Part shown: positions 963-61,898 of the stretch, one piece after another | Position numbering within the stretch: the stretch's first letter is position 1 | Layout of the letters: every line of letters starts with the position of its first letter | DNA from: Thiomicrorhabdus sp. Kp2 | Lineage (GTDB): Bacteria; Pseudomonadota; Gammaproteobacteria; Thiomicrospirales; Thiomicrospiraceae | Direction of reading: 5' to 3' | DNA length: 64,000 nucleotides | Assembly: GCF_000478585.1 (NCBI RefSeq) | Contig: NZ_ARWI01000001.1 | Span: 372,001-436,000 of the forward strand | Position numbers and translations under genes: made by a program | The notes under the pieces: model-generated | Database searches by the model: none | The model's input: only the letters and a program-made list of their open reading frames with translations | Told to the model about the DNA's origin: nothing

Positions 963-978
963 TTACCAGGCCTGGTAA
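963..978. repeat. Palindromic repeat, full 16-mer TTACCAGGCCTGGTAA
   Basis: Perfect 16-bp palindrome between the divergent ppiD and cheY-like genes. It is one of five complete 16-mers in the window, all of them intergenic. Confidence 0.95.
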
Positions 979-1096
979 TATGTTAATGACAACAAGTATT
1001 TAATATACAAAATCGCCTTTTACAAAACCTCAAAAACCCAGTGTGAAATTTTAGTAAAATGCGGAGCATTGTATTGACCCATATAAAGAGATAAAA

Positions 1097-1456
1097 ATGA
1101 AAAAAGTACTTTATGTTGATGATGCAAGTTCAATGAGAAAACTGGTTAATTTAGTATTAAGTCAAAAATTTGATATTACAATGGCTGAAAATGGCCTTGA
1201 AGCTTATGAAGCGATTCAACAACAATCATTTGATGCCATTATTTCAGATATCAATATGCCAGTAATGACGGGCTTAGAATTTTTAGAAAAGTTAAGACAA
1301 CATCCAAATAGCAAGTTTACCCCAGTGCTCATGCTTACAACTGAAGCAAGCGCTGAGTTAAAAGCCGAAGGTAAACGTTTGGGTGCAACGGGCTGGATTG
1401 TTAAGCCTTTTGACCCAGAAAAATTAGCCGCAACAATCAATCGTGTTATTGGTTAA
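1097..1456 (+). CDS. CheY-like single-domain response regulator
   Basis: This 119-residue protein is a bare receiver domain. The acidic pair D8/D9, the phospho-acceptor D51 (SDINMP), the switch Thr81/Thr82 and Lys103 (VKPF) are all present, so it should be phosphorylated normally. There is no output domain, as in CheY and in the stand-alone regulators of chemotaxis or type IV pilus systems. An AAAGAGAT ribosome site lies upstream. No kinase or chemotaxis gene is adjacent, so the partner is unknown. It is followed by a strong terminator shared with convergent purA. Confidence 0.85.
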   Translation: MKKVLYVDDASSMRKLVNLVLSQKFDITMAENGLEAYEAIQQQSFDAIISDINMPVMTGLEFLEKLRQHPNSKFTPVLMLTTEASAELKAEGKRLGATGWIVKPFDPEKLAATINRVIG

Positions 1457-1530
1457 AGTGAATGAATAAAGCTATTTAACTCCCTTACAACCGACTCGTT
1501 AAATCTGTTTAGGCCGTATATAAAACAGCA

Positions 1531-1554
1531 AAGCCCTCATTTGAGGGCTTTTTT
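1531..1554. terminator. Bidirectional rho-independent terminator between the cheY-like gene and purA
   Basis: AAGCCCTC pairs with GAGGGCTT around a four-base loop, with T-runs on the plus side and an A-run (T on the minus side) before the stem. It lies between convergent genes and can serve both. Confidence 0.85.
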
Positions 1555-1575
1555 ATCTAAACAGTTTAGCTTTGA

Positions 1576-2895
1576 CTATGCAAATGGGTCATTAATAACC
1601 AAGGTCTCTGAACGGTCAGGACCTGTAGATAAAATAGAAACTGGAATACCCACCTCTTTTTCTAAAAACTGGATGTAATTTTTAGCCTCTATGGGTAAAG
1701 CATCCCACGACTCAATACCCACTGTTGAAGTTTGCCAACCTGGCATCGTTACATAATTTGGTGCACAAGTTTCATATTCATCAGCACTCGATGGTGGTAA
1801 TAAAAGTGTTTTTCCATCCTGATCATAAGAAACACAGATTTTGATTTCAGCTAACTGATCCATAACGTCCAGCTTAGTTAAACACATTCCAGTTAATCCG
1901 TTAATCTGTGCTGAACGACGTAAAGCAACAGCATCAAACCAACCACAACGACGCTGACGCCCAGTGGTTGCACCAAACTCATGTCCACGAGTACCTAACT
2001 CTTTACCAATTGGGTCACCCACATCGGTATCGCAGTTATAGCCTAACTCAGTCGGAAATGGACCACTCCCCACACGCGTAGCGTAAGCTTTGGTAATACC
2101 AAGAATGTAATCTAACGCTGTTGGCCCAATGCCTGCACCAGGCCCTGCACCACCTGCAGTGGTGTTAGACGAGGTTACATAAGGATAAGTACCATGATCA
2201 ATGTCTAACAAAGTGCCTTGCGCCCCTTCAAACATTAAGTTTTTGCCTGCCGCATTGTACTCGCTGATTAAATTAGGTACATCTGCAAGCATAGGTAAAA
2301 TCATTTTACTGTAACGCTCACATTTAGCCCAAAGTTCATCAAATGAAACAGGAGTCGCTTTGTAATAGTTTGCAATCATATAGTTGTGGTATTCCAAAGT
2401 TTCTTTTAACTTTGCTTTAAATGCTGGCATATTTTTAAAATCGCCAGCACGTAAACCACGTCGCGCTACCTTATCTTCATACGCAGGTCCAATACCACGC
2501 CCCGTAGTACCAATCGCTTTATTACCACGCGCTAACTCACGAGCTTGGTCTAGAGCCACGTGATAATCTAATATAAGTGGGCAGGCATCACTGATTTTTA
2601 AACGACTTTGAACCTGTAAACCTGTCGCCTCAAGTTGAGTTACTTCTTTCTCTAAAGCATCTGGAGCCAATACCACACCATTACCAATCAGACATTCCAC
2701 TTCTTCACGCAAAATTCCAGACGGAATCAGGTGTAAAACCGTTTTTTTGCCATCAATCACCAGGGTATGACCTGCATTATGACCGCCTTGAAAACGTACA
2801 ACCGCAGCCACTCTATCTGTTAGAAGATCAACAATCTTACCTTTACCTTCATCGCCCCACTGGGTACCAACAACAACAATATTTCGTTTTGACAT
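1576..2895 (-). CDS. purA: Adenylosuccinate synthetase
   Basis: Joins IMP and aspartate using GTP in the first committed step from IMP to AMP; cytoplasmic homodimer. The glycine-rich loop [11 protein letters not shown] (residues 10-20) holds the catalytic Asp14, and GGHNAGHT (37-44) holds the catalytic His42. The [16 protein letters not shown]-binding segment and a [12 protein letters not shown] stretch are intact. At 439 residues it is slightly longer than the usual 430. It is the last gene of the leftward hfq-hflX-hflKC-hisZ-purA block, an order common in gammaproteobacteria. Confidence 0.97.
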
Positions 2896-60167: not shown

Positions 60168-60206
60168 TTTTTCACTCTTGCGTATTATCAAAAAAAGACA
60201 TTTTAA

Positions 60207-60473
60207 ATGACCTTAAAAGAACGATTTCGCCCAATTGTTAAGCCACTAGCTTACCTTTTAATTGCCGTCTCAACAATCTCTTGGACTGCGGTTTTTGCCA
60301 TTCCATTCTTCGAATTTAGCATCTCAGAAATGGCTGGTATCATTACCGCTTTAATTATTATTGGTGAAGTCACATTTTACCTAGCCATATTACTTTTAGG
60401 CAAAACCGTATGGAATAAAATGAAAGAAAAGTGGCTATCCCAAATCAATAAAGCTAAAAATAACAACCCGTAA
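60207..60473 (+). CDS. Small two-helix membrane protein, transporter-suffix-domain-like
   Basis: This 88-residue protein has two hydrophobic helices (about residues 13-32 and 41-65), then GKTVWNKMKEKW. The pattern 'SWTAVFAIPFFEFS...GEVTFYLAILLLGK' resembles the transporter suffix domain found alone or at the end of some transporters. The function is unknown. It diverges from tesA. Confidence 0.6.
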   Translation: MTLKERFRPIVKPLAYLLIAVSTISWTAVFAIPFFEFSISEMAGIITALIIIGEVTFYLAILLLGKTVWNKMKEKWLSQINKAKNNNP

Positions 60474-60646
60474 CCTCCCTACTTTAGCCACTCATCACAC
60501 CGTCCGTACAAATAAAAGCTAAGCTTTTGATATTTCTGCCGTTAATAAACTTATAACAATAAAAACCAATATAAAAAACACATACAAAAAACAATAAGCA
60601 TTCAAGGGAAACATCCAGCAAACTTAATAATATATTGGATAGTTTT

Positions 60647-61843
60647 ATGAAAATTATTGACCAGAACCTTCAACTCTCTTCCCAGCACTATGCTGCAAAA
60701 GAGAGCCATAGAGAACGTGTGCATGAAACTTTTGTTAACGGCCAGTTAGCAACGCGTGAAACGGACAACCTCTCTGTAAAAAACACCTCTTCAAGCCAAC
60801 ACCAGTTGCTGATTGGCAAAGGCGTTGATTCAAATATGGTAAATAATAGACCATCAATTGACAGTCGTCCGAGTTTAAACCAAATTAATGACCAACAAAA
60901 AAACCTTGTTTATAACCCAAACAGTCCGTCACAGTTTGTAACTGCTAATGACGTTAAAACAAGCGAACTTGATAATCAAAGCACTCTACCTCCTAAGTTA
61001 CTGGAAATGATTAAAGCAATTGAAGCTTTAATGGAACGGATAACTGGCAAAGCCTACACCTTGAAGGTCATGGGTTATGAATCTCAAGATAAACCTGAAA
61101 AAGAGAATATAAATCCAGGTCAAATGTTGTCAACGCCAAGTGAAAATCAAATTGACCTGCAACAAAATAGTATTCCATCTATGGGTGAACGATGGTCGCT
61201 CCATAGTTCTTACCAAGAAACTGAGCAAACCCACTTTCAAGCCAAAGGTCACGTAAAAACAGCCGATGGAAGAGAGATTGATTTTGCTTTAAAGACTCAA
61301 ATGTACCGTAATTTTTCAACGCAATTGCACGTTGAAAAAGAACAAGGTGTTGTTCTCAAAGATCCTTTAGTCGTCAATTTTTCTGGGGCACCAGCAAACC
61401 TGACTGTTGAGAAATTTAACTTTGATTTAGATGCCGATGGCAAGAATGAGCAGATATCATTTGTTAATCAAGACTCTGGCTTTTTGGCTTATGACAAAAA
61501 TCAAGATGGTGTCATTAACAATGGCAGTGAGTTATTTGGCGCCTTAACGGGCAATGGTTTTGAGGAGCTTTCGCAATTTGATGACGATAATAATGGCTGG
61601 ATTGATGAAAATGATGCGATTTTTTCTAAGCTGCAAATATGGCAAAAAGACAGCCACGGTTTAGACCAATTATCTGGTCTAATGGAGATGAATATTGGTG
61701 CAATATCCTTAAATCACATTGCAACAGAGTTTGCTTTAAAGGATGAAAACAACCAACAACATGGTCAAATAACCGATACGGGGGTTTATCTAAGGGAATC
61801 GGGTGGCGTTGGAACCATTCAGCAAATTGATTTAGTCGTTTAA
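60647..61843 (+). CDS. Protein with calcium-loop-like repeats, function unknown
   Basis: About 398 residues. There is no signal peptide. A long polar, Gln/Ser-rich N-terminal region (1-170) is followed by a stretch with clustered Asp loops (DLDADGKNEQ, DKNQDGVINNGSELFG, DDDNNGWIDENDAIF) like those of EF-hand-like or RTX-neighbour proteins, and a hydrophobic C-terminal part (GTIQQIDLVV). I prefer the ATG at 60647; a TTG at 60635 also lies in frame. Such proteins occur among cell-surface or secreted factors, but export is not shown here. Confidence 0.6.
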   Translation: MKIIDQNLQLSSQHYAAKESHRERVHETFVNGQLATRETDNLSVKNTSSSQHQLLIGKGVDSNMVNNRPSIDSRPSLNQINDQQKNLVYNPNSPSQFVTANDVKTSELDNQSTLPPKLLEMIKAIEALMERITGKAYTLKVMGYESQDKPEKENINPGQMLSTPSENQIDLQQNSIPSMGERWSLHSSYQETEQTHFQAKGHVKTADGREIDFALKTQMYRNFSTQLHVEKEQGVVLKDPLVVNFSGAPANLTVEKFNFDLDADGKNEQISFVNQDSGFLAYDKNQDGVINNGSELFGALTGNGFEELSQFDDDNNGWIDENDAIFSKLQIWQKDSHGLDQLSGLMEMNIGAISLNHIATEFALKDENNQQHGQITDTGVYLRESGGVGTIQQIDLVV

Positions 61844-61852
61844 TTTAAACTA

Positions 61853-61898
61853 ATAAGTTACCAGGCCTCGAAAGAACTCAACAGGCCTGATAACTTAT
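61853..61898. terminator. Long inverted repeat built from two palindrome copies, after the calcium-loop gene
   Basis: ATAAGTTACCAGGCCT (61853-61868) pairs with AGGCCTGATAACTTAT (61883-61898), 15 of 16 matches, around a 14-base loop. Each arm carries a degenerate copy of the palindrome (cores 61861-61870 and 61881-61890). It sits just after the stop at 61843 and may act as a terminator, though no strong T-run follows. Confidence 0.65.

Follow-up and report, generated by a model that had tools for sequence, protein, structure and literature searches.

The genome of Thiomicrorhabdus sp. Kp2 harbours a short palindromic tag, built around the invariant 8-mer CAGGCCTG and noticed in a stretch of 64 kb (contig NZ_ARWI01000001.1, positions 372,001 to 436,000; hereafter the window). 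The tag is probably an uptake sequence, by which cells would recognise their own DNA and which transformation would maintain; its dialects in related genomes would include both dyad-symmetric and asymmetric ones. Of an uptake tag one would expect numerous copies, single sites that are restored, dialects, and A/T tracts near the core, and all of these were observed. To our knowledge, uptake sequences are established only in Pasteurellaceae and Neisseriaceae. Searches with CCAGGCCTGG, for uptake sequences and for the genus names found no description of the motif among the matches listed from openly licensed papers, and a word search of the Hydrogenovibrio genome paper (PMC6501319) finds neither competence nor natural transformation.

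The window possesses 19 exact copies of the 10-mer CCAGGCCTGG and 8 with one mismatch (27 matches), as counted by eye in the original prediction. One hundred dinucleotide shuffles of the window gave a mean of 0.60 and a largest count of 3 at up to one mismatch. The chance expectation of 0.015 exact cores, based on an assumed 40% G+C content (GC), was recomputed as 0.021 with an order-1 Markov model at the GC of the window, 39.0%. The 16-mer TTACCAGGCCTGGTAA is present exactly at five positions (963, 11836, 15882, 33829 and 58908), and with up to three mismatches 25 times, against 0.18 expected. All five exact copies lie outside called open reading frames (ORFs), in agreement with their description as intergenic; genes are mechanical longest-ORF calls, and the terms genic and intergenic refer to these ORFs. 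The 10-mer had been taken as the core, and its strong over-representation holds, but the invariant unit is the 8-mer CAGGCCTG, with 28 copies in the window. It is contained in 26 of the 27 matches to CCAGGCCTGG, the exception being the site at 61861, and two further copies (34558 and 61882) lie two mismatches away from CCAGGCCTGG.

The original prediction would not survive a motif that falls to background frequency outside the window, and this is not what was found. The source genome (G000, genus code g1; a single contig of 2,725,706 bases) possesses 718 copies of CCAGGCCTGG and 1133 copies of CAGGCCTG, with a reversed control of 0 in both cases, and CAGGCCTG was found in 20 out of 20 sampled stretches of 20 kb. 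With more than a thousand copies over the chromosome, the tag is like an uptake sequence, and is at the same time a highly iterated palindrome (HIP). Copy number and random-like spread appear to resemble those of known uptake sequences.

Copies were counted in 62 genomes of the family, many of them metagenome-assembled genomes (MAGs), and genomes with at least 200 copies of CAGGCCTG are called carriers. Thirty-two out of the 62 genomes are carriers, with 236-1173 copies, and the other 30 have 0-74. Carriers were found in the genera g5 (9/9), g6 (7/11), g1 (15/32) and g3 (1/1), and none among the nine genomes of g2, g4 and g28. Twenty-one genomes from other families of the class have 0-35 copies of CCAGGCCTGG (reversed control 0-13). 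Among the best 80 of 119 stretches in a scan of named genomes for TTACCAGGCCTGGTAA, 67 stand under the names Thiomicrorhabdus, Thiomicrospira, Hydrogenovibrio or Piscirickettsiaceae, and the other 13 belong to scattered phyla, differing from row to row. The related group named in the original prediction, Thiomicrospira/Hydrogenovibrio, proved essentially correct. The carrier label needs 4-5 changes on a ComEC tree, which has 29 rows and was made from one gene by a quick method with only part of the non-carriers included. In a viral collection, the exact 16-mer TTACCAGGCCTGGTAA is present in 4 stretches, and a 14-mer of the dialect of genome G024, described below, in 35.

The motif was described from a sample of 464 kb of G000, consisting of the window and 20 stretches of 20 kb, with 202 copies of CAGGCCTG. 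The core sits inside the graded palindrome AAnTTACCAGGCCTGGTAAnTT, and information reaches about ±11 positions (AAnTTAC-CAGGCCTG-GTAAnTT). The A residues at -10/-11, mirrored by T at +10/+11, form A/T tracts roughly one turn of the helix away from the core centre. Numbers for the motif come from unmasked sequence, since repeat masking hides some of its copies. Beyond ±11 the information is at most 0.04 bit, and there is almost none in the flanks past about ±12. One-mismatch forms of CCAGGCCTGG number 6 in total over the eight inner positions, against 133 perfect copies, and 52 at the two outer positions. In 593 kb of G000 (22 blocks), AC-core-GT was found 126 times perfect and twice with one core mismatch, where permuted cores give an expectation of 0.34 one-offs.

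Of the 202 sites, 125 are genic, though ORFs make up 88.6% of the sample; intergenic density is about 4.8 times the genic one. Per kb, convergent intergenic regions have 2.6 sites, tandem regions 1.5, and divergent regions 0.72 (75 of the 77 intergenic sites classed). The counts per 20 kb have a mean of 8.7 and a variance of 8.5 over the 20 stretches, the lowest count being 2 (L169), and the gaps between sites in the 593 kb fit random placement (coefficient of variation 0.93 versus 0.99 simulated, P=0.17). The tag-free gaps named in the original prediction are present for CCAGGCCTGG, but the unevenness read from them is ordinary. A regular spacing of the tags is likewise unsupported by these near-random gaps. 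Genic copies are read mainly in two frames, xCA-GGC-CTG (PGL, 83 sites) and CAG-GCC-TGG (QAW, 37 sites), and in 5 cases as AGG-CCT. The sites of the window, and the comEC gene that holds three of them, are the following:

963..978, strand. : exact 16-mer TTACCAGGCCTGGTAA, intergenic
8864..8873, strand. : motif site CCAGGCCTGC, within ORF 8672-9631(-), IPP transferase
9942..9951, strand. : exact 10-mer, within ORF 9688-11604(-), MutL
11836..11851, strand. : exact 16-mer, intergenic
15882..15897, strand. : exact 16-mer, intergenic
19893..19902, strand. : motif site CCAGGCCTGT, genic
20846..20855, strand. : exact 10-mer, genic, FMN_bind ORF
21569..21578, strand. : exact 10-mer, genic, Rnf-Nqr ORF
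22530..22539, strand. : exact 10-mer, intergenic
22752..22761, strand. : exact 10-mer, intergenic
30286..30295, strand. : motif site CCAGGCCTGC, genic
32109..32118, strand. : exact 10-mer, genic, class I Glu/Gln tRNA synthetase family ORF
33829..33844, strand. : exact 16-mer, intergenic
34558..34565, strand. : core-only site CAGGCCTG (as GCAGGCCTGC), genic, two mismatches to CCAGGCCTGG
38158..38167, strand. : exact 10-mer, in a short ORF of 80 residues, doubtful as a gene
41305..41314, strand. : exact 10-mer, genic, Peripla_BP_2 ORF
41935..41944, strand. : motif site ACAGGCCTGG, genic, Peripla_BP_2 ORF
44415..47048, strand - : comEC, gene of the DNA-translocation channel, 877 residues, DUF4131, Competence and Lactamase_B domains (PF03772, E=7.5e-56), with three motif sites
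44679..44688, strand. : exact 10-mer in comEC, QAW in the protein
45608..45617, strand. : exact 10-mer in comEC, PGL in the protein
46584..46593, strand. : exact 10-mer in comEC, tag at the same position in 10/22 aligned genomes
51774..51783, strand. : motif site CCAGGCCTGC, genic, ammonium transporter ORF
52138..52147, strand. : exact 10-mer, genic, ammonium transporter ORF
55126..55135, strand. : motif site ACAGGCCTGG, intergenic
55145..55154, strand. : exact 10-mer, intergenic
58908..58923, strand. : exact 16-mer, intergenic
59882..59891, strand. : exact 10-mer, genic, GDSL lipase-family ORF
60140..60149, strand. : motif site ACAGGCCTGG, genic, GDSL lipase-family ORF
61861..61870, strand. 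: near-site CCAGGCCTCG, one mismatch within the core, the sole match to CCAGGCCTGG (up to one mismatch) without CAGGCCTG
61882..61889, strand. : core-only site CAGGCCTG (as ACAGGCCTGA), intergenic, two mismatches to CCAGGCCTGG

ComEC was aligned by codons for 22 genomes (16 carriers and 6 non-carriers), and the tag arises there mostly by substitution. The column with the tag in ten genomes spans two genera, and the tagged genomes always read QAW where the others vary. Single-genome tag sites fall in gapped parts of the alignment in two columns (G019 and G005). The conservation of sites was further followed in 327 orthologue pairs obtained from chance overlap of the sampled stretches, ComEC pairs included; pairs with G021 (18) and G024 (5), which are neither carrier nor non-carrier, were excluded. 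Ungapped genic sites of G000 were exactly kept in 16 out of 62 carrier comparisons (3 more gapped), versus 1 out of 54 comparisons with non-carriers, and control palindromes were kept in 1/25 and 2/14 comparisons. In the reverse direction, sites of the partner were kept in G000 in 16 out of 40 carrier comparisons and in the single non-carrier comparison (1/1). Amino acid identity at the site codons is 0.69 in carriers versus 0.68 overall, and 0.55 in non-carriers versus 0.69 overall. The tag sites are imposed on the protein sequences. Between G000 and G022, a syntenic stretch of 19.4 kb with 74.7% nucleotide identity has 5 out of 9 sites in common, compared to 57 out of 578 GC-matched 8-mers, and 635 of 1049 fourfold sites differ in the sampled orthologues of the two genomes, a saturated divergence. 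Single sites are therefore maintained, whether through selection or through drive.

The tag is spelled differently among relatives of strain Kp2. The base next to the core is C in G000, G in G008, A in G005, and mixed in G026 and G035, all of them carriers. Genome G024 possesses 1217 copies of another palindrome, CCGGCCGG, but just 12 copies of CAGGCCTG; none of the others among the 62 family genomes has more than 159 copies of CCGGCCGG, and the genome with that count has a control of 148. Genome G021 harbours the asymmetric AACAGGCCGGGT, 12 times in 60 kb with a reversed control of 0 and mostly preceded by AAACTC; AACAGGCCGGGT was not found in 35 other sampled genomes. Its core hits number 32, including at least one site counted twice in overlapping loci, and the ComEC tree groups G021 with the palindrome carriers G005, G008, G018 and G026. 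Another asymmetric motif, CCAGGTTGGG, is present 8 times in 40 kb of G064 and 5 times in 20 kb of G068, mostly after an A-tract. No copy was found in 40 kb of G063, and the remaining sampled genomes lack the motif too, except for two copies in 515 kb of G000.

Runs of at least seven G, mostly followed by AT-rich DNA, were found in G012 (7), G017 (18), G023 (10, three counted twice) and G029 (2), in 14-30 kb each; for comparison, G028 has 2 (46 kb) and G000 has 1 (100 kb). These four genomes form one clade on the ComEC tree. In one stretch of 16 kb (L306), GGGGGGG has 22 matches, overlapping ones counted, versus 0.9 in shuffles. The G-runs dispersed in L306, L302, L305, L232 and L246 (G017, G012, G023) are possibly a homopolymer dialect. 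The dialects are clade-specific; the asymmetric motifs (AACAGGCCGGGT, CCAGGTTGGG and the G-runs) come from small samples of 14-60 kb per genome, and the spacing of their A/T tracts was read by eye. They may share the function of the palindrome. Some other repeated words were noted in the sampled genomes. In G013 (L290-L292), CGACTTAC is present 12 times in 60 kb versus about 1.2 expected, with flanks mostly unlike one another, and is tentatively another short tag. In G014, the candidate tag AAACGCCC (15 in 80 kb) was rejected, as it partly forms hairpin pairs like terminators. The sampled stretches of G020 (L182-L185) are dominated by words with about 100 repeats each, which by their look are probably a CRISPR array.

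If the tag guides uptake, a cell-surface or pilus-associated receptor would preferentially take up tag-bearing DNA, ComEC would pass it into the cell, and homologous recombination would spread and repair the tag, so that about 1100 copies accumulate and persist. The tag would be dyad-symmetric in most carriers, and shifts of receptor specificity in some lineages would have led to the CCGGCCGG palindrome or to asymmetric tags. Natural competence, biased uptake, a receptor and one function for all dialects would be parts of such a system. The gene for DNA translocation expected in such a host, ComEC (PF03772), was found in 31 out of 32 carriers; the sole carrier without a match, G006, is a fragmented MAG (82%), where a protein search finds pieces of ComEC. 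Two segments of G021 (C1:50566-51360 and 88066-89826) encode parts of comEC, with a PF02086 match adjoining at 87209-87769, and the gene may be interrupted or rearranged. Genome G031 (99% complete, 9 contigs) has no ComEC above the Pfam cut-off, yielded no tag of similar strength in 80 kb, and may have lost transformation.

Strain Kp2 possesses a secretin of the MshL type, which exceeds the NCBIfam cut-off at two loci, as well as a match to an MshEN-domain ATPase. Genes of type II secretion also score above cut-off, and the ATPase of a Tad-like cluster scores below it. A gene of 205 residues in the MSHA-like cluster has no match in G036. The same pair of ORFs (170 and 257 residues, compared by the first 30 residues) stands beside the Tad-like and the MSHA-like clusters (L388:4900-6248 and L391:6150-7498), and is possibly an insertion sequence. 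Secretin matches in short open frames of G019 (C1:1755515-1756071) and G024 (C1:2177305-2177739) may be decayed or misassembled.

The uptake signal sequence (USS) of Pasteurellaceae, AAGTGCGGT, has a short core and, at a distance of about one helical turn, A/T tracts, and the tag of strain Kp2 is built in the same way. Unlike the tag, which is a candidate for uptake, the USS is asymmetric and belongs to bacteria of demonstrated competence. According to PMC1852404, the motif of Haemophilus ducreyi lacks the GT dinucleotide of the usual USS, and the difference resembles that between TTACCGGCC and TTACCAGGCC here. In H. influenzae, over-representation drops 92-fold from 0 to 1 mismatch according to PMC1939737, and ComN (ComN/PpdA) is proposed as the USS receptor in PMC12616744. 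For Neisseriaceae, PMC3630211 describes eight dialects of the DNA uptake sequence (DUS), and overlapping dyad-symmetric DUS pairs in Simonsiella and Kingella. Similar to the DUS, the tag has many genic and intergenic copies and clade-specific dialects around a shared core. In contrast to the DUS, with its receptor ComP, the commonest dialect here is a perfect palindrome, the candidate dialects diverge further, up to G-runs, PF16732 (ComP) is without match in carriers, and uptake is a proposed function.

Several observations weigh against an uptake sequence. No receptor gene was found by the PF16732 search or by comparison of the MSHA-like cluster. ComP_DUS (PF16732), the Neisseriaceae receptor, was not matched by any carrier at E<=1e-3, its one match, below cut-off, being in the non-carrier G020. 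A receptor within the MSHA-like cluster was rejected, since gene content is largely alike in the carriers G000, G022 and G036 and in the non-carriers G003 and G025. PilO (PF04350) is absent from 37 out of 37 family genomes searched; as a marker of type IVa pili it is therefore uninformative for carriers versus non-carriers, and the secretins reveal other pilus-type systems. ComEC is also present in 25 of the 30 non-carriers and does not predict the tag, and with only 5 of the 30 missing it, loss of ComEC was discarded as the cause of tag loss. In G021, with its asymmetric tag, comEC is in two pieces about 37 kb apart. One-off cores are scarcer than a leaky uptake bias would be expected to leave. 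No comparably strong tag was found in ten sampled non-carriers (G003, G011, G014, G020, G025, G027, G031, G060, G063 and G071; 20-120 kb each). The alignable sites of G024 are never at the positions of the carriers (0/3 and 0/8), and a site-by-site conversion to its dialect was rejected on these counts. Finally, a literature search found no competence or uptake experiment on this group.

The palindrome, its nearly invariant core and the strong site-by-site maintenance would also be expected of a binding site, required every 2-3 kb, for a sequence-specific protein of the nucleoid or of chromosome organisation that is probably homodimeric, and so would the preference for intergenic regions away from divergent promoters. 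We regard this as unlikely: the asymmetric and G-run motifs of relatives, if they have the same function, are not predicted by a homodimer site, no regional pattern was found over the 20 stretches, the tag is absent from 30 out of 62 family genomes, and the sites alter protein sequence. The homodimeric protein suggested in the original prediction is thus compatible with the palindrome but fits the asymmetric relatives poorly. The unlike spellings inside one family also count against a control site for recombination or repair (helicase-nuclease) of the Chi type or a mark for mismatch repair, which we consider improbable. Chi sites are over-represented octamers with a few hundred copies per Mb, asymmetric and mostly genic. 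The tag is an over-represented octamer of similar density and present in all 20 sampled stretches; unlike Chi, it is a double-stranded palindrome with outer A/T tracts and is enriched between genes. As for mismatch repair, 14 out of 18 carriers searched have no match to the Dam-type family PF02086.

A by-product of a DNA methyltransferase, as in the HIP1 model (Elhai 2015), was another lead of the original prediction, and is now very improbable. The tag does resemble HIP1 and the alternate HIPs of cyanobacteria, being a highly iterated GC-rich palindrome that overlaps CCWGG and GGCC, and according to PMC4390886 such palindromes are replaced by others in some genomes. G000 itself has one match to PF00145, two neighbouring matches to PF01555, and one to PF02086. 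However, none of these three families, each searched in 58 genomes including 18 carriers, tracks the motif. Seven of the 18 carriers (G010, G015, G018, G022, G026, G028 and G033) have no match to any of them at E<=1e-3, other methyltransferase families not having been searched, and completeness is 86% for G010 and 99% or more for the remaining six. Enzymes of this kind are present in several non-carriers, and a symmetric enzyme leaves the asymmetric dialects unexplained. The lack of the three type II families in 7 of 18 carriers makes the cyanobacterial mechanism unlikely. Intrinsic terminator hairpins or a miniature mobile element are hardly credible. The palindrome can fold, convergent intergenic regions are the richest, and a few of the genic copies fall at gaps in the alignment of ComEC, but 125 sites are inside ORFs, most aligned genic copies arise by substitution, and the flanks beyond about ±12 share next to no sequence. 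Neither homology beyond the tag nor insertion at empty sites was found; a single mobile element, the other outcome that would have undone the original prediction, does not account for the copies, and as sole explanation terminators or mobile elements are contradicted. Among its three leads, the parallel with uptake sequences is the best supported, through the dialects, some of them asymmetric, the A/T tracts, the even density and the imposition on proteins.

It is evenly balanced, in our judgement, whether these free-living chemolithoautotrophs are a third family with sequence-guided uptake, in which an ancestral palindrome was read by a dyad-symmetric receptor unrelated to ComP, and lineages exchanged it for a second palindrome, for tags with half or no symmetry, or for G-runs. 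If the tag does not serve uptake, the alternative would be a DNA-binding system of unknown kind that maintains about 1000 sites with unusual fidelity. If it does, the dialects, with palindromes, asymmetric motifs and homopolymers among them, would offer a natural series on how a receptor changes its reading, and the family would be suited to ask by what route a thousand tags come to be respelled and if species are kept apart by their tags. Autotrophs living at vents and in sulfidic habitats would then be likely to undergo natural transformation, among them H. marinus, whose complete genome is available.

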